43,088 nt of DNA. Source: an uncultured Selenomonadales bacterium (GTDB lineage: Bacteria; Bacillota; Negativicutes; Acidaminococcales; Acidaminococcaceae). The notes beneath the pieces were generated by a model, which ran no database searches, was not told the origin of the DNA, and worked only from the letters and a program-made list of their open reading frames with translations. This document shows, piece by piece, positions 14,122-23,272 of the stretch. The translations under genes were made by a program, and so were the position numbers. Every line of letters starts with the position of its first letter. Position 1 is the stretch's first letter. The DNA is taken from positions 1-43,088 of the forward strand of contig ONAV01000025.1 of assembly GCA_900315925.1 (NCBI GenBank), read 5' to 3'.

Positions 14122-15756
14122 ATGAGACTAAGCACCTATGAAATCATCCTGCCGCTGGTGGGTACGGATGAAAAACCGATTGAGGGATACACGCTGCTGA
14201 CGAACGGCTTGTACGGCGCCGTGGACGTAGTGCCGAAGGAAGACGCGGACAAGCTGCAGGCAGGAGATTTTGCCGGATTGCCCGCCGCGCTGCGGGAACG
14301 GCTTATGCTGCGCGGACATATCACACGCAAAGACGAAGCGGGCGAACTGGCGGACCTGAAACTTCTTTCACGCATCTTCAAGACCATTCAGGGCCGCAGC
14401 GGTGTGGGACTGGTCATCATGCCTACCTACGACTGCAATTTCCGCTGCCCGTACTGCTTTGAACAACACCGGCTGAAGAAAGGGCAGGACTGGCTCGATA
14501 ACACCATGAGCGATGAGATGATAGAAACCGTTTTCAACGCGCTGAAGGACTACAGAGCGCGGGGTTATATGGTGAACGGCTGCTCGTTCTATGGCGGGGA
14601 ACCGTTCCTGGCAAAAAACCTCGGCGTGGTAAAAAAGATTGCCGACAAATGCAGGGAAATGGACCTGTCTATGGGCGCCATTACCAACGGGTACGATCTG
14701 GAAACGTATCTGGACTTCATAGAAGAATACAAGCTGAGAAGCTTACAGGTGACGGTGGATGGCACGGCGGAGCTGAATGACCGCCGGCGTCTCCACAAGG
14801 ACGGTCTGCCCACCTACGACCGCATCCTGCGTAATGTGGAGCTGGCGCTGGAGCGGGGCGTGAGGGTGAACCTGCGGGTGAACGTGGGCAAAGAGAATCT
14901 GCACGGGATGAAGGAACTGATCGATGACCTGAAGGCCCGGGGCTTTATTGCGAAAGAAGAAGAACGGGCCAAAGAGGAAGAGGAACTCAGGAAAACCGAC
15001 CCCCAGGCGAAGACAAAGCGGGGCGAGTTCTCGTATTACTTTAAGGCGACCACCGATGACGCGCATCCGGAAAAGAATATCAGCGAGCAGGATACCATTG
15101 ACGAAATGATGAAGATCGGCTTCACAGCGGAGGAAGCAGTTGCCCGCCAGAGCCAGTACAACATGATCTGGAACCGGATGAAGAATCTCTTTAAGAAGGA
15201 AGGGTATCCGGATTTCTCCCCGGCGTATTGCGGCGCCGAGATGGGAATGCTGGTGGTGGACCCCTTCGGGAAAGTCTTTTCCTGCTGGGACGTCGTAGGG
15301 AAAGACGACCAGGCGACTGGGTATATCCAGCCCGGTATGAGCCGGTTCTTATGGAATTTCAACAAGGCAAAGTGGCGTACCCGTACCGTGGACCTGATAC
15401 CGGCCTGCCAGAGCTGCCCGTATGCCTTTATCTGCCGGGGCGGCTGCGCTTCCCGTTCCAGCAACGCGTATGATGACTATTTCCGGGAATTCTGCGGCGA
15501 GATCCGGGAGATTTTTGCCTTCACGGCATCCCGTTTGGCCGGTCAGGAGTGGGAAAAACGCCGTGCCGCCGCTGCCGCGGGTGAAGCAAGCATGGATGCC
15601 TGCGCGGGCGAACTGACGCTGTCCCTGGCCGGACCCGCTTCGCGGTTTACAGAGGCGGAACGGGCGAAGATTATGGAAACAAACAGCCAGAAAGAAATGT
15701 TTGATATTGTAAAAGGGGCCGCCTTTTTCCCGGAACCTGAGAAAGCGGGAAAATAA
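14122..15756 (+). CDS. Radical SAM/SPASM peptide maturase
   Basis: 544 residues after AAAAGGAGATG. An N-terminal ~95-residue region precedes the radical SAM motif YDCNFRCPYC (Cys 105, 109, 112), which binds the 4Fe-4S cluster for S-adenosylmethionine cleavage. YGGEPFLAK and AITNGYDL are typical core motifs. The C-terminal SPASM domain supplies auxiliary-cluster cysteines: YCGAEMGM, FSCWDV, CQSCPYAFICRGGCASR, EFCGEI. Such enzymes install thioether or C-C crosslinks in ribosomal peptides. No precursor is adjacent, but the two Nif11 precursors 12 kb upstream share a promoter element with this locus. A ~60-residue extension after the SPASM domain is unassigned. Confidence 0.88.
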   Translation: MRLSTYEIILPLVGTDEKPIEGYTLLTNGLYGAVDVVPKEDADKLQAGDFAGLPAALRERLMLRGHITRKDEAGELADLKLLSRIFKTIQGRSGVGLVIMPTYDCNFRCPYCFEQHRLKKGQDWLDNTMSDEMIETVFNALKDYRARGYMVNGCSFYGGEPFLAKNLGVVKKIADKCREMDLSMGAITNGYDLETYLDFIEEYKLRSLQVTVDGTAELNDRRRLHKDGLPTYDRILRNVELALERGVRVNLRVNVGKENLHGMKELIDDLKARGFIAKEEERAKEEEELRKTDPQAKTKRGEFSYYFKATTDDAHPEKNISEQDTIDEMMKIGFTAEEAVARQSQYNMIWNRMKNLFKKEGYPDFSPAYCGAEMGMLVVDPFGKVFSCWDVVGKDDQATGYIQPGMSRFLWNFNKAKWRTRTVDLIPACQSCPYAFICRGGCASRSSNAYDDYFREFCGEIREIFAFTASRLAGQEWEKRRAAAAAGEASMDACAGELTLSLAGPASRFTEAERAKIMETNSQKEMFDIVKGAAFFPEPEKAGK

Positions 15757-16673: not shown

Positions 16674-16793
16674 CAAAAAAGGCCTGCAAAGCAGACCTTA
16701 ATGTTCCACACGGTGGAGGTTCCGAAGAACGGGTTGAATAAATTTTTATTTGAACTTGTAATGTAAACTCACTGGATGGTAAACAATGAGCTT
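16674..16793 (-). ncRNA. tracrRNA of the type II-A system
   Basis: Read on the minus strand, an anti-repeat (about 16787-16750) contains TTTACCATCC, GTTTACATTAC, AAG and TTCAAAT. It pairs with the repeat as GTTTGA (with TTCAAAT) and GTAATGTAAA (with TTTACATTAC), leaving a GA/AAG bulge like the one in the S. pyogenes duplex. Downstream are a short hairpin with a TTCG loop (CCGTTCTTCGG), another stem near CCACCGTGTGG, and a terminator AAGGTCTGC-TTT-GCAGGCCTT followed by TTTT. Length is ~120 nt. It is divergent from cas9. The 5' end is inferred from the promoter. Confidence 0.87.
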
Positions 16794-16799
16794 ACATTA

Positions 16800-16828
16800 A
16801 TGCTAAACCATAACTTCTATTTTGTCAA
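16800..16828 (-). promoter_or_regulatory. tracrRNA promoter
   Basis: On the minus strand TTGACA (16828-16823) and TAGCAT (16805-16800) are separated by 17 bp. Transcription would start near 16793, just before the anti-repeat. Confidence 0.7.
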
Positions 16829-16871
16829 TAAAAACTTGCTAACAATAAGTAAAAAGAGAGGATGAATTTAC

Positions 16872-19800
16872 ATGTCTAAAAAGTTTGCTGGAGAGTATTA
16901 TTTGGGCCTCGATATTGGAACGGACTCTGTAGGTTGGGCAGTGACAGATAATCAGTATAATGTTTTAAAGTTTAATGGGAAATCCATGTGGGGCATTCGC
17001 TTGTTTGACGCAGCACAAACAGCAGCGGAAAGAAGAATGTTCAGAACAGCACGGCGGCGTGTTGAACGCCGCAGGTGGCGTTTGGAACTTTTGCAAGAAT
17101 TATTTCAAAATGAAATTGAGAAAAAGGATCCGGATTTTTTCCAGAGAATGAAAGACAGTGCTTTATATCCGGAAGACAGCAAAACAGGCAAACCGTTTGC
17201 GTTGTTTTGCGATAAAGATTTGAACGACAAATTGTATTACAAACAGTATCCTACGATTTATCATCTACGTAAAGCATTGTTGACAGAAAATAGTAAATTT
17301 GATATCAGACTGGTTTATCTTGCAATTCATCATATCCTTAAACACAGAGGTCATTTCCTGTTCAATGGGGATTTTTCCAACGTCACGCGGTTTAGCTTTG
17401 CTTTTGAACAATTGCAGACTTGCTTGTGCAATGAGCTTGACATGGACTTTGAGTGCAACAATGTTCAGAAACTGAGCGAAATCTTAAAAGATACCCATAT
17501 GAGCAAAAATGATAAAGTGAAAGCATCTGTTGCACTATTTGAAAATTCAGGAGACAAAAAACAGTTGCAGGCTGTGATTGGTCTTTTCTGTGGGGCAAAG
17601 AAAAAGCTTGCAGATGTGTTTTTGGATGAAACTTTAAATGATACTGAAATGCCCAGTATTTCAATTGCTGACAAGCCTTATGAAGAGTTAAGACCGGAAC
17701 TGGAGAGTATATTAGCAGAAAAATGCTGTGTGATAGATTACATTAAAGCTGTATATGACTGGGCTATATTGGCGGATATGTTGGATGGTGGAGAATACGG
17801 TAATCGAACATATATCTCTGTAGCAAGGGTAAGGCAGTATGAAAAGCATCATGATGATTTAAAAAAATTAAAAAAACTGGTGTGCCTGTATTGCAAGTCA
17901 GAATATAAATCGTTTTTCAGCGTTGCCGGAACAGATAATTATTGCGCATATATCGGTGATGATATTGAAACAGATGACAGAAAATCGGTTAAGAAATGTA
18001 AACAGGAGGATTTTTATAAACGCATAAAAGGGTTATTGAAGAAAGCTATTGAAAATGGCTGTCCAAAAGATGAAGTGGCGGAAATTATTAAAGATATTGA
18101 TGCCCAGGTTTTCTTACCATTACAGGTTACTAAAGATAATGGAGTTATTCCGCATCAAGTACATGAGATGGAACTGAAACAGATTTTAAAGAATGCGGAA
18201 AAATATTATCCTTTTCTGTGTAAAAAGGATGAGGAAGGTATTGTTACCAGTAACAAAATTCTGCAACTGTTCAAATTCCGAATTCCGTATTATGTTGGTC
18301 CTTTAAACAGTAGAATAGGGAAAAATAGCTGGATTGTCCGTCGAGCAGAAGGTAAGATATATCCTTGGAACTTTGAAGAAAAAGTTGATTTTGATAAATC
18401 AGAGGAAGGATTTATCCGCCGTATGACAAATCCGTGTACCTATATGGCAGGTGCAGATGTTTTACCAAAGTATTCTTTGCTTTATTCTGAGTTTATGGTT
18501 TTAAACGAATTGAACAATGTCAGAATCTGCGGTGACAAATTATCTGTGGAAATTAAGCAGACAATAATTAAAGATTTGTTCCAAAGAACTCGCCGTGTAA
18601 CTGTCCGAAAGCTTTGTGATAAGTTAAAAGCAGAAGGGGTTATTTCCAGGAATTCAAATCAAAAAGATATTGACATAAAAGGCATTGATCAGGATTTAAA
18701 ATCTTCAATGGTTTCTTATATTGATTTCAAAAATATTTTTGGCAAAGAAATAGAAAAATACTCCGTACAACAGATGTGTGAACGAATTATCTTTTTGCTG
18801 ACCATTCATCACGATGACAAAAGAAGATTGCAAAAACGTATTCGTGCAGAATTTACAGAAACGCAGATTACTGATGATCAGCTTCAGAAAGTTTTGCGGT
18901 TGAATTATCAGGGATGGGGCAGATTCTCTGCTGAGTTTTTAAAGGAATTAAAAGGTGTTGATACAGAAACCGGCGAGGTTTTTTCAATCATAAATGCATT
19001 ACGGAAAACAGATGATAATTTAATGCAGCTGTTAAGTAACCGCTATACATTTTCGGAAGAGTTGGAGAAATATAATAGTAATAAACGCAAAAAGATAGAA
19101 GCATTAACATATGATAATATCATGGAAGGTATTGTAGCTTCACCAGCCATTAAGCGTTCAGCGTGGCAGGCAATATCTATTGTTATGGAATTGAGTAAAA
19201 TTATGGGACGGGAGCCTAAACGCATTTTTGTGGAAATGGCGCGTGGTCCAGAAGAAAAGAAACATACTATATCAAGAAAGAATCAATTATTGGAACTTTA
19301 TAAATCCGTCAAAGATGAAAGCCGAGATTGGAAAACTGAACTGGAAACAAAAACGGAAAGTGATTTCCGTAGTATTAAACTGTTTCTGTACTATACGCAA
19401 ATGGGGCGTTGTATGTATACCGGTGAACCAATTGATTTGGATCAGCTAGCTAATACAACAATTTATGATCGCGATCATATTTATCCACAGTCGTTGACGA
19501 AGGATGACAGCCTGAATAATTTAGTTTTGGTCAAAAAAGTTGAAAATGTCAATAAGGGAAATGGCTTGATTTCTGCTGATATTCAGAAGAAAATGAGAGG
19601 CTTTTGGGCGGAATTAAAGAAAAAGGGCTTAATATCAGATGAAAAATTTAGCCGTTTAACCAGAACTACACCATTGTCTGATGACGAATTGGCTGGGTTC
19701 ATTAATCGCCAATTAGTAGAAACAAGGCAATCTTCCAAAATTGTGGCCGATTTATTCCATCAACTGTATCCTACAACGCAGGTTGTGTATGTGAAAGCCA

Positions 19801-20984
19801 AAATAGTGTCTGACTTCCGTCACGAAACACTGGATATGGTTAAAGTACGTTCGCTTAATGATTTACACCATGCAAAAGATGCATATCTGAATATTGTAAC
19901 GGGCAATGTTTATTACGAAAAGTTTAGCGGTAATCCGTTAACCTGGTTGAGAAAGAATCCAGACAGAAACTATAGTTTGAATCAAATGTTTAACTATGAC
20001 ATAGTGAAAAAGACAAAAGAGGGAACTTCTTATGTTTGGAAAAAGGGAAAAGACGGTTCCATTGCAGTTGTAAGAAGAACCATGGAACGGAATGATATTT
20101 TATATACGAGGCAGGCTACGGAAAATAAAAATGGCGGATTGTTTGACCAAAATATTGTAAGTAGTAAGAATAAACCGTTTATACCTGTAAAGAAGGGGTT
20201 GGATGTTAATAAGTATGGTGGATATAAAGGAATAACGCCTGCATATTTTGCACTCATCGAGTTTACTGATAAAAAGGGAAGTCGCCAACGGTTGCTTGAA
20301 GCTGTTCCGTTATATTTGCGGGCAGATATTGACAACGATTCAAATGTATTGCGTGACTTTTACAAAAATGTGTTAGGCTTAGAGAATCCAGTTGTTATTT
20401 TGAATAGGATTAAAAAGAATTCTTTATTAAAAATAAATGGTTTTCTGATTCATTTGCGTGGTACAACCGGGTTTTCTGCTTCGCAGTTGAAGGTACAAAA
20501 TGCTGTTGAATTCAGTCTGCCACATCACATGGAAGATTATGTTAAGAAGCTTGAAAACTATGAAATACATATAATAGCAGAAAGAGGTTCAACGAAAAAT
20601 TCTCAGATAAAGATTACCGAGTGGGATGGAATTAGTAAAGAAAAGAATCTGCAATTATATGATATGTTTATTAATAAAATGGAAAATACGATTTACAAAT
20701 TCAGACCTGCTAACCAGGTGTCAAATTTGAAGGAAAACAGAGAAGTTTTCAATTCATTAGCTGTTGAAGATCAGTGCTCTGTATTAAATCAAATACTAAT
20801 GTTATTTGTTTGTAAGCCAGTGACAGCCAACTTATCACTAATTAAAGGATCGAAGAATGCCGGTAATATGGCTTTATCTAAAATAATTTCTAATATGCGA
20901 AGCGCTTACTTGATTCATCAGTCCGTAACAGGTCTCTTTGAACAAAAAATTGATTTATTAAAGGTTAGTTCGCAGAAAGACTAA
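16872..20984 (+). CDS. cas9: CRISPR-associated endonuclease Cas9, type II-A
   Basis: 1370 residues, the size of SpCas9. RuvC-I is YLGLDIGTDSVGWAVTD with catalytic Asp 14; the bridge helix is Arg-rich (RRMFRTARRRVERRRWRLEL). RuvC-II is RIFVEMARG (Glu near 787), HNH is IYDRDHIYPQS (His near 866), RuvC-III is HHAKDAYL (near 1000). The C-terminal PAM-interacting region ends SVTGLFEQKIDLLKV, similar to the SpCas9 end. All nuclease residues are present, so it should cut DNA with crRNA and tracrRNA. AGAGAGG precedes the start. Base composition is more AT-rich than the upstream genes, consistent with transfer. cas1 and cas2 do not follow; only a csn2 fragment does. Confidence 0.97.
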   Translation: MSKKFAGEYYLGLDIGTDSVGWAVTDNQYNVLKFNGKSMWGIRLFDAAQTAAERRMFRTARRRVERRRWRLELLQELFQNEIEKKDPDFFQRMKDSALYPEDSKTGKPFALFCDKDLNDKLYYKQYPTIYHLRKALLTENSKFDIRLVYLAIHHILKHRGHFLFNGDFSNVTRFSFAFEQLQTCLCNELDMDFECNNVQKLSEILKDTHMSKNDKVKASVALFENSGDKKQLQAVIGLFCGAKKKLADVFLDETLNDTEMPSISIADKPYEELRPELESILAEKCCVIDYIKAVYDWAILADMLDGGEYGNRTYISVARVRQYEKHHDDLKKLKKLVCLYCKSEYKSFFSVAGTDNYCAYIGDDIETDDRKSVKKCKQEDFYKRIKGLLKKAIENGCPKDEVAEIIKDIDAQVFLPLQVTKDNGVIPHQVHEMELKQILKNAEKYYPFLCKKDEEGIVTSNKILQLFKFRIPYYVGPLNSRIGKNSWIVRRAEGKIYPWNFEEKVDFDKSEEGFIRRMTNPCTYMAGADVLPKYSLLYSEFMVLNELNNVRICGDKLSVEIKQTIIKDLFQRTRRVTVRKLCDKLKAEGVISRNSNQKDIDIKGIDQDLKSSMVSYIDFKNIFGKEIEKYSVQQMCERIIFLLTIHHDDKRRLQKRIRAEFTETQITDDQLQKVLRLNYQGWGRFSAEFLKELKGVDTETGEVFSIINALRKTDDNLMQLLSNRYTFSEELEKYNSNKRKKIEALTYDNIMEGIVASPAIKRSAWQAISIVMELSKIMGREPKRIFVEMARGPEEKKHTISRKNQLLELYKSVKDESRDWKTELETKTESDFRSIKLFLYYTQMGRCMYTGEPIDLDQLANTTIYDRDHIYPQSLTKDDSLNNLVLVKKVENVNKGNGLISADIQKKMRGFWAELKKKGLISDEKFSRLTRTTPLSDDELAGFINRQLVETRQSSKIVADLFHQLYPTTQVVYVKAKIVSDFRHETLDMVKVRSLNDLHHAKDAYLNIVTGNVYYEKFSGNPLTWLRKNPDRNYSLNQMFNYDIVKKTKEGTSYVWKKGKDGSIAVVRRTMERNDILYTRQATENKNGGLFDQNIVSSKNKPFIPVKKGLDVNKYGGYKGITPAYFALIEFTDKKGSRQRLLEAVPLYLRADIDNDSNVLRDFYKNVLGLENPVVILNRIKKNSLLKINGFLIHLRGTTGFSASQLKVQNAVEFSLPHHMEDYVKKLENYEIHIIAERGSTKNSQIKITEWDGISKEKNLQLYDMFINKMENTIYKFRPANQVSNLKENREVFNSLAVEDQCSVLNQILMLFVCKPVTANLSLIKGSKNAGNMALSKIISNMRSAYLIHQSVTGLFEQKIDLLKVSSQKD

Positions 20985-21422
20985 GGTGCCCTATACGAGA
21001 AACTAGAAACAGAAATTAACACTACGGACAATTTATTTGTTTGGAATGAGCTTTGTGGTAAGATGGAAAAGGAGTTGCAAAGTTTTTTGGATACAATGGA
21101 TTACCACATATCGTATGCGGACAATATCACAATAAAAGATTTTTTAAAGTTGATGAAGGTGCGTTTTCAAGAAGAGGGTGTTCATTTTTTTGAAAAACTA
21201 TTAGATTTTATCCGACTAGAGCAACAAATTCTGAAGGTCAGATTATTTGTTTTGGTAAATATTAAAGGCTATTTGAACTTAGAACAACTGCACTTTTTAT
21301 ATCAGCAAAGTTGTTATGATAAATTCCAATTGTTGCTGATTGAATCTTGTATGGATGAGCAGAAAAGAATTGGAGGTGAGCATGTACTGATTATTGATAA
21401 TGATAGTTGTGTTATTTACTGA
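20985..21422 (+). pseudogene. csn2: csn2, N-terminally deleted remnant
   Basis: Directly after the cas9 TAA, in the same frame, 145 codons read GALYEKLETEINTTDNLFVW through FEKLLDFIRLEQQILKVRLF, VLVNIKGYLNLEQL and FQLLLIES to DNDSCVIY and a stop. These are the middle and C-terminal parts of Csn2, the ring-forming adaptation protein of type II-A (~220 residues). About 75 N-terminal residues and cas1 and cas2 are absent. No ribosome site precedes the internal ATG at 21063, so translation is doubtful. The last cas9 codons may themselves come from csn2 (see finding). Confidence 0.85.
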
Positions 21423-21496
21423 TTTATATGATAATATTATTGATCATCTTGAATTTACCTGCGTGGTAATGTCGCAGAACTACAAACCAATTTGAG
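21423..21496 (+). promoter_or_regulatory. CRISPR leader region
   Basis: 74 bp between the csn2 remnant stop and repeat 1; the first ~40 bp are AT-rich (GATAATATTATTGATCATC). It ends ACCAATTTGAG just before the first repeat. Its place between csn2 and the array is the canonical leader position in type II-A loci. No clear -35/-10 pair is visible. Confidence 0.55.
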
Positions 21497-21928
21497 GTTT
21501 GAGAGTAATGTAAATTCATAGGATGGTAAAACGAGTGATTATATTGGCACAGGCGATTCCTGGTTTGAGAGTAATGAAAATTCATAGGATGGTAAAACAA
21601 GCGTGAGCTGGACGTAGAATGGAATGCGGTTTGAGAGTAATGTAAATTCGTAGGATGGTAAAACATAAGGAACAGGAAAAGCATCTGAAGGATGGTTTGA
21701 GAGTAATGTAAATTCATAGGATGGTAAAACCACTGGGTTGGCGAGATGCGGCTGACGTGGGTTTGAGAGTAATGTAAATTCATAGGATGGTAAAACTTTA
21801 TGCGGTAGGTGTGAAGGTGTGCGGAAGTTTGAGAGTAATGTAAATTCATAGGATGGTAAAACCATATTGCTAAGGCACCATTTCAAAATCGGGTTTGAGA
21901 GTAATGTAAATTCATAGGATGGTAAAAC
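21497..21928 (+). CRISPR. CRISPR array, 7 repeats and 6 spacers
   Basis: 36-bp repeats start at 21497, 21563, 21629, 21695, 21761, 21827 and 21893; all six spacers are exactly 30 bp. The repeat starts GTTTGAGAGTAATG and ends GGATGGTAAAAC. Repeats 1, 4, 5, 6 and 7 are identical. Repeat 2 has T to A in the TGTAAA part and repeat 3 has A to G in TTCATAGG. Direction (plus) follows from tracrRNA pairing to the repeat 5' half. No spacer had an obvious match elsewhere in the window by eye. The last repeat joins a transposase remnant directly. Confidence 0.98.
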
Positions 21929-22401
21929 ATCACATGCCGGACCGGTACACGATTTTTATCACGGAGGAAGATAAATTCGGTAAGGGCCTTCCTATGTACC
22001 ATATCGAAAATACGATTACGGAGTTAGGTGATATACCGTTTCTGGATGGCGGGCACATTATTTACGTGAATGGCGAATAACGAGACCCTGCCACACCTGT
22101 CGGGCAATTGATGCACGATTTTGCCTGTACGCAGGCCCGTGATATTTTGAATCCGGTATTACGTGAGCGGGTGCGGTATTTGAAGGAGAGCGAAGGGGGG
22201 AATGCGGAGATGTGTGAATTGGTAGAAGAATACGCAGAAAAGAGAGCTAAAAGATATGCAGAAGAAAGAGAAATGCAGGTTAAGATGAGGACTGCTAAAA
22301 ATTGCATAGATAATACAAATCTTCCGCTGGAAGACATCGCAAAATGTGTTGAACTTCCACTTGCTACCGTAGAAGAGCTTGCACGCGGAAGAACAGCGTG
22401 A
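21929..22401 (+). pseudogene. PD-(D/E)XK (Rpn-like) transposase-family remnant
   Basis: From the first bases after the last repeat, one frame reads MPDRYTIFITEEDKFGKGLP then MYHIENTITELG and GGHIIYVNGE, a TAA at 22078-22080, and on in the same frame: LMHDFACTQARDILNPVLRE, RVRYLKESEGGNAEMCELVE, then a charged coil, ending at 22401. This is the C-terminal half of the PD-(D/E)XK nuclease family transposases (recombination-promoting nucleases). The catalytic N-terminal half is missing and the remainder carries a nonsense mutation. An ATG at 22108 could restart translation of 97 residues. Confidence 0.82.
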
Positions 22402-22441: not shown

Positions 22442-23272
22442 ATGTTGAAAAGAATCATAACTTGTTTGTTGGCCTTGTCGCTTCTGGCTGGAGTACAGGT
22501 GAGCTTTGCCGCAGAAAAAGCAGGTGCGGAGGCGGGACCGATTTCCAAGGCGGAACATAGTCAATATCCACGTGCCTATGAAAAGGCGATTCTTGCCGCA
22601 AGATCAGAAGTTCCGGCAACAGCCGAATATCAGGGCATGTTAATTGAAAAGGAAACCGATAAGACGATTGCCTTTTCGTTTTTCGATAACAGCACGCTCC
22701 GTGCCTATGAAGTCACCGTGATAAAAGAGATAAATAAGGTGAAAACTGTTAAAATCGGAGGAAGCAATATTCCCGGCAGCACAACTGTTAATAAGACAGT
22801 CGAAGATATCGAAGAAATCATTCGTTTGGAGTATCCGGACGGCAAAATTAAATCAATTGAGCAAAAGTACGAGGGAAACCTCACCTATTATGAAGCGCAG
22901 CTGGAAACGCAGCGGTTTACGGTAGACCTTAAGATCAATCCGGTAACAGGAGCCATCGGCAGCCGGGTGTTGGAGTTTAAAGTGGAACCGCCCAAGGTGG
23001 AGGAGAAGAAACAACCTTCCCATAATCCGGCAAAAGAAGAACCGGTAAAACCGAAGCAACATAATCCGATTCCACCTGTTCCCGGCGAATGGACGTGCGG
23101 CAACTGCGGTACCCTGAACCACGAGGGACAATTCTGTACTAATTGCGGAATCCAGAGACCTGCGGATATGAAAGCGCCTGTTGCTAAATGCAGCAAGTGC
23201 GGATGGAAGCCCCAGGATCCCTATAACATCCCGAACTTTTGCCCGGAATGCGGCGCTCAGTTTGAAAAATAG
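22442..23272 (+). CDS. Secreted protein with PepSY-like and double zinc-ribbon domains
   Basis: 276 residues after GAAGGAGGAAA. Signal peptide: MLKRIITCLLALSLLAGVQV, cleavage near SFAA. Residues ~110-180 resemble a PepSY-type fold (IIRLEYPDGKIKSIEQKYEG, NPVTGAIGSRVLEF). A Pro/Lys/Glu linker leads to two zinc ribbons: CGNCGTLNHEGQFCTNCG and CSKCGWKPQDP...CPECG. Zinc ribbons in an exported protein are unusual because they are mostly cytoplasmic. It may inhibit a protease or sense metal or redox state, but this is only inference. It converges with the primase gene with a 1-bp gap. Confidence 0.75.
   Translation: MLKRIITCLLALSLLAGVQVSFAAEKAGAEAGPISKAEHSQYPRAYEKAILAARSEVPATAEYQGMLIEKETDKTIAFSFFDNSTLRAYEVTVIKEINKVKTVKIGGSNIPGSTTVNKTVEDIEEIIRLEYPDGKIKSIEQKYEGNLTYYEAQLETQRFTVDLKINPVTGAIGSRVLEFKVEPPKVEEKKQPSHNPAKEEPVKPKQHNPIPPVPGEWTCGNCGTLNHEGQFCTNCGIQRPADMKAPVAKCSKCGWKPQDPYNIPNFCPECGAQFEK

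Follow-up and report, generated by a model that had tools for sequence, protein, structure and literature searches.

A CRISPR-Cas9 locus of a Succiniclasticum-like bacterium, derived from type II-A and without cas1 and cas2: one shared deletion scar and unlike spacer arrays

Clustered regularly interspaced short palindromic repeat (CRISPR) loci that have cas9 as their only cas gene are already known. Those of Campylobacter coli clade 3 belong to type II-C, with cas9 unaccompanied by further cas genes in the genomes under comparison, and allelic exchange was proposed by the authors as a source of their spacers (PMC4607530). We describe a type II-A-derived counterpart shared by rumen bacteria, here from a Succiniclasticum-like metagenome-assembled genome (MAG; G000, contig C58; 2.56 Mb in 100 contigs, 88.4% complete). 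It lies on contig ONAV01000025.1, whose 43,088 nucleotides we call the window. Like the C. coli loci, the window locus has cas9 and repeats without cas1 or cas2, but it differs from them in its type II-A derivation, its base-exact deletion scar, its remnant of csn2, and the unlike arrays found among carriers of the same scar. Compared with complete type II-A loci (cas9-cas1-cas2-csn2, as in the related genomes G032 and G039), it has the same Cas9 family, the same gene order for the genes still present, and a leader and repeats behind csn2. However, it is without cas1, cas2, and the N-terminal part of csn2, and thus without acquisition in cis; in Streptococcus thermophilus, acquisition requires Cas9, Cas1, Cas2, and Csn2 (PMC4607530).

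Two other systems invite comparison. Type II-A loci of Mycoplasma gallisepticum in house finches have also lost parts, and spacers differ greatly between populations there, but those losses inactivated cas9 or removed the tracrRNA and all cas genes, whereas the window locus keeps cas9 and has lost adaptation only (PMC11893278). The type VI-B array of Flavobacterium columnare, like ours, is without adaptation genes of its own and has variable spacers; its type II-C source in trans is known and tested, whereas none was found for the window locus (PMC8092290). Indeed, CRISPR loci with variable spacers but without acquisition are a known puzzle (PMC8092290). One survey reported, among 477, no type II cas locus devoid of cas1-cas2 (PMC5294841); it deals with loci that contain three or more cas genes and so may miss ones like that in the window. 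We met no type II-A locus of this kind in the literature searched, mostly at the level of titles and with poor coverage of subscription journals.

The window locus comprises, in order, a minus-strand trans-activating CRISPR RNA (tracrRNA), cas9, the csn2 remnant, a leader, and an array of seven repeats and six spacers. The cas9 gene (16872 to 20984, plus strand) encodes a full-length protein of 1370 amino acids, as in type II-A. Pfam identifies its REC, bridge helix, HNH, RuvC, and protospacer adjacent motif (PAM)-interacting domains, TIGR01865 matches residues 9 to 1355 (955 bits), and the top match among solved structures is 9jwk, a Cas9 chain of 1372 amino acids (928 bits). At the deletion scar (20982 to 20990, plus strand), the cas9 stop codon TAA is joined to about codon 82 of csn2, and cas1, cas2, and the 5' part of csn2 are gone. 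The csn2 remnant (20985 to 21422, plus strand) consists of the C-terminal 145 codons, in frame behind the TAA. It matches PF09711 and positions 82 to 222 of the 222 in TIGR01866, leaving csn2 incomplete at ∼63% of the protein, and it begins without a start codon, the first ATG being at 21063.

No cas1 or cas2 was found in the window, so that the type II-A operon is not whole, and the assembly it belongs to contained no Cas1, no Cas2, and no csn2 besides the window remnant. Neither Cas1 nor Cas2 was detected in G013 (94% complete), a MAG placed in the same genus that carries a near-identical locus. Both genomes, as incomplete MAGs, thus have cas9 and repeats with no cas1 or cas2 detected elsewhere. 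Because cas1 and cas2 are absent from the window and from its own assembly, we filed the locus as a type II-A derivative and not as a complete type II-A system. An earlier note, made from the sequence of the window, had described intact interference parts beside a deletion of cas1, cas2, and the N-terminal part of csn2. Both halves of that description hold, with tracrRNA, full-length Cas9, leader, and regular array all found, and the search it proposed for another cas1 or cas2 in the genome came up empty in this incomplete assembly.

A protein scan of genome contigs with the window Cas9 returned 24 loci. The best segments of three of them (L024, L025, and L026) were 99 to 100% identical to the window Cas9. 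The nearest named relative by cas9 is L024, a contig labeled as uncultured Succiniclasticum from red deer; L024/L061 appears to be identical to contig C90 of G013, having the same length and array. The junction across the cas9 stop codon and csn2 is identical to the base in all four near-identical loci (window, L024/L061, L025, and L026), which come from four assemblies. Among the remaining 21 loci, 16 had enough downstream DNA, and all 16 carry cas1 and cas2. L031 has part of cas1 where its contig ends, and L035, L043, L045, and L047 are uninformative, as their contigs end 12 to 215 bases past the cas9 match. A csn2 match was present in 15 of the 16 relatives with enough flank (the exception, L046, has cas1 and cas2), which together with the remnant in the window sets the locus apart from type II-C. 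The same-family genomes G032, G039, G029, and G025 retain cas9, cas1, and cas2, as confirmed by Pfam for G032, G039, and G025. Overall, 14 of 100 related genomes matched the window Cas9, mostly distantly. None of the scanned loci is an intact close allele from which the exact breakpoints of the deletion could be read.

A four-way alignment of the near-identical loci contains 26 informative sites, 22 of which pair the window and L026 against G013 and L025, with 3 and 1 sites for the other splits. All four of the sites in the csn2 remnant, between the scar and the array, follow the same split as the majority. Because one tree accounts for these 22 sites, left and right of the scar alike, the deletion looks ancestral, and a single event in the common ancestor, before the carriers split, is its most likely origin on this alignment. 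The comparison with related strains that the earlier note had proposed thus found cas1-cas2 kept in relatives, and it revealed what the note had not seen, a scar that is shared and apparently ancestral, with one haplotype on both sides. Two observations in relatives are of separate interest. In L059 (G029:C2:36500-49800), cas9 is split, its last ∼62 residues lying ∼6.5 kb further on, past inserted DNA, with cas1 and cas2 intact. In L060 (3533 to 3964, minus strand; G025), a csn2 frame of 144 amino acids with only the C-terminal family part stands behind intact cas1 and cas2.

The three arrays that could be read among these carriers differ entirely, despite the shared scar and a cas9 that is about 99% identical. 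The leader (21423 to 21496, plus strand) is identical at 74 of 74 positions in G013 and L026. It precedes the CRISPR array (21497 to 21928, plus strand), which has 7 repeats of 36 nucleotides and 6 spacers of 30 nucleotides at an exact 66-nucleotide spacing, with one substitution each in repeats 2 and 3; leader and array thus stand behind the cas genes, as in type II-A. The window has six spacers, G013 at least four (its contig ends within the array), and L026 four, and no spacer is shared among the three. Even the window and L026, whose cas9 genes are the more closely related, have different spacers on both the leader side and the far side; past the last repeat these two have ATCACAT in common and then diverge. 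The earlier note had taken immunity to be frozen to six spacers unless Cas1-Cas2 came from elsewhere. This is not supported: whether arrays were renewed or decayed, the six spacers in the window do not just preserve the array as it stood when the deletion occurred. Arrays detected in relatives have 5 to 62 repeats, some of them cut by contig ends, not counting G025 and L033, where stretches read N; an array was looked for in L027, L028, and L041, and none was detected.

Between the window and G013, cas9 shows 41 differences in 4110 bases, with 3.1% synonymous and 0.46% replacement divergence (ratio of replacement to synonymous divergence [pN/pS], about 0.15). At segregating sites in the four haplotypes, cas9 has 49 synonymous and 24 replacement changes; for the csn2 remnant the corresponding numbers are 3 and 10 (P = 0.0045). 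These counts indicate that cas9 is held by purifying selection and that the csn2 remnant is probably relaxed and drifting. Synonymous divergence from G013 is higher in the radical-SAM gene left of the locus (7.9% over 373 aligned codons; P = 0.002 versus cas9), and it is 5.0% in the phosphatase gene and 7.5% in the gene at 22442 to 23269. Other neighboring frames scatter widely in divergence, and some of them are paralogues or shadow frames. The lower synonymous divergence of cas9 than of the radical-SAM gene is consistent with recombination in the region.

Three spacers have recognizable targets in genes of viral type. Spacer 3 (21665 to 21694, plus strand) matches at 30 of 30 positions in contig C68 of G006, a genome of the same genus, and in viral contig IMGVR_UViG_2799112357_000002. 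In G006:C201, spacer 6 (21863 to 21892, plus strand) matches the gene for a phage terminase large subunit (27/30), and it has a weaker match in G005:C222 (25/30). Two viral contigs have a replication-initiation gene that spacer 1 of L026 matches (29/30). The 3' flanks of these three protospacers read CCAATT, ATGATT, and AAGATT, from which we infer the PAM NNRATT; when flanks were drawn at random from these contigs, three at a time, a run of three agreeing positions came up in 0.17% of draws. Two matches were excluded from this count: the third contig matched by L026 spacer 1 (L110; 23/30 only, with a flank off the motif) and the spacer 6 match in G005, whose flank, GTTATT, fits ATT but not the purine. 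The viral-contig scans covered 8 of the 14 full spacers (the six of the window and the first of G013 and of L026), with one scan each, using the 3' 20 nucleotides except for spacer 6 (30 nucleotides, degenerate); two had matches and six had none. The family search (59 genomes each) covered the window and L026 arrays. The window array had no match in the phage collection, and no second match to its spacer sequences was reported in its own assembly. Cas9 would be expected to cleave PAM-flanked targets under the guidance of CRISPR RNA (crRNA), and the putative PAM makes the window Cas9 directly testable.

We read the locus as an interference-only derivative of type II-A CRISPR-Cas. One ancestral deletion in a Succiniclasticum lineage would have taken cas1 and cas2 along with ∼81 codons from the start of csn2, leaving Cas9, tracrRNA, leader, and repeats that should still yield a crRNA-guided nuclease, presumably cutting phage DNA beside NNRATT. 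Spacer acquisition in cis would then be impossible. Renewal of the array after the deletion would have come mainly from homologous recombination, acting at the leader and repeats, with arrays from unsampled relatives still proficient in adaptation. We hold this whole explanation (ancestral deletion, cas9 kept by selection, arrays renewed mainly by recombination) tentatively, with slightly more doubt than belief. The more general claim, that a lineage without Cas1-Cas2 renews its spacers and that ready-made arrays pass between strains and species by recombination, is possible but rather doubtful. If true, immune memory would reside at the level of the population, with carriers drawing on spacers that others had written. 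With the shared base-exact scar, the selected cas9, and the unlike arrays, additional carriers can answer whether Cas9 memory is renewable without Cas1-Cas2.

It is important to note that several observations weigh against this explanation. A donor allele with intact cas1-cas2-csn2 and this repeat did not turn up in the genomes at hand; across the 14 genomes of the genus, csn2 occurs as two remnants only, Cas1 was found in G007 and G009 only, and Cas2 in G007 only. No recombination breakpoint was located, and the topologies show no clustering in their order along it (P = 0.60). When L025, in which inserted DNA interrupts csn2, is left out, the contrast between cas9 (35 synonymous to 18 replacement) and the csn2 remnant (3 to 6) gives P = 0.077. 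L025 and L026 are each a MAG contig of ∼6 kb, possibly mis-binned, and the assembly of L026 (G101) has Cas1 on two other contigs. The cas9 of L026 is without 119 nucleotides, by mutation or by assembly, with a stop at residue 1057; if the missing stretch is real, this Cas9 is not a working effector. Finally, the short arrays (six and four spacers) fit simple decay as well. As an aside, the insertion that cuts the csn2 remnant of L025 (4568 to 5974) looks, by eye, to be of IS110 type.

Such decay would have started from an ancestral array of well over 14 spacers, with each line losing different spacers by repeat-repeat deletion and none acquired since. It needs no unseen donor, and both arrays that can be read to their end are short for the range seen in relatives. 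Random retained sets of six, four, and four spacers would share none with probability 0.23 for 50 ancestral spacers and 0.51 for 100, but with probability just 0.009 for 20 and 0.07 for 30; decay therefore needs a long ancestral array. The differences between the window and L026 at both ends of the array tell against decay, as do the near-perfect spacer matches (30/30 and 29/30) to sampled viruses, which suggest young spacers. We regard decay as a serious possibility that is still probably not the answer, and we slightly favor renewal of the arrays over decay of one ancestral array. Renewal by adaptation in trans, with Cas1-Cas2 (and Csn2) from another locus, a plasmid, or a phage adding the spacers, would explain why arrays vary without adaptation genes in cis and why leader and repeat are conserved. 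It has a precedent in the type VI-B array served by type II-C machinery (PMC8092290), and one of the two G101 contigs with Cas1 has it beside cas2 and csn2 of a second type II-A locus. However, that cas1 is frame-broken, the other Cas1 of G101 lies in an operon that looks type I-like by eye, the G101 contigs may be mis-binned, no Cas1 was found in G100, and the window assembly and G013 returned neither Cas1 nor Cas2 at 88% and 94% completeness; adaptation in trans therefore seems unlikely to us. This second locus, L070 (G101:C252, 1126 to 1866, minus strand), is a different type II-A locus in which the broken cas1 lies just behind cas9 and cas2 and csn2 are open.

The remaining alternatives concern the scar itself. 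Repeated origin at one place, or its movement through recombination to strains whose arrays were unlike beforehand, would account for unlike arrays without any later acquisition and for cas9 being closer between species than a neighboring gene is. However, a junction identical to the base in every carrier, together with sites on both sides that show the same split, including all those in the csn2 remnant, makes this very improbable. Slighter still is the chance of an assembly artefact. All four near-identical loci are metagenome-assembled, and arrays are prone to assembly breaks and mis-joins, but the same join recurs in four assemblies and none of the four has the intact order for this cas9. 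The earlier note's view of the join as a natural scar is accordingly strengthened.

The tracrRNA (16679 to 16793, minus strand) is predicted, its 5' end placed from a promoter-like site and its 3' end from a terminator stem (16699 to 16679, minus strand). Its anti-repeat (about 16747 to 16784, minus strand) is predicted to pair with the CRISPR repeat in a duplex of 32 pairs (−37.8 kcal/mol); with duplex and terminator, the predicted RNA pairs with the repeat as in type II-A. The promoter-like site (16800 to 16828, minus strand; TTGACA-17-TAGCAT) is a consensus match only, and the promoter scan overall found fewer sites than in its shuffles. No match was returned by an Rfam search of the window. 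Upstream of the anti-repeat, a repeat-like arm can form a 16-pair hairpin (16743 to 16828, minus strand) with the same letters in the four carriers where covered, and because of this arm the extended minus-strand RNA upstream of cas9 folds strongly (z = −5.3). A natural single guide of the tracr-L kind was considered here and rejected: the sequence that would serve as guide coincides with the predicted promoter of the tracrRNA and varies between carriers, and its last 9 nucleotides occur only once in the window, leaving no PAM-flanked site near the cas promoter.

At its far end, the array is fused to a PD-(D/E)XK (Rpn-type) gene that is 5' truncated and frame-broken (21934 to 22401, plus strand). 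The syntenic gene in G013:C194 is intact and encodes 289 amino acids, and the far flank of the array therefore appears to have been deleted; the pieces in the window have no Pfam match themselves. At a contig end of G005 (L064; G005:C16), one repeat of this array's kind and an incomplete spacer abut a different, 5'-truncated PDDEXK_2 gene, and the search of 100 related genomes found no cas9 match in G005. Two array ends beside truncated genes of the PDDEXK family may be a matter of chance. Left of the locus, the radical-SAM gene (14122 to 15756) encodes a protein of 544 amino acids with a second iron-sulfur match and adjoins the gene for a low-molecular-weight phosphatase; the matches of this protein to viperin models are probably generic to the superfamily.

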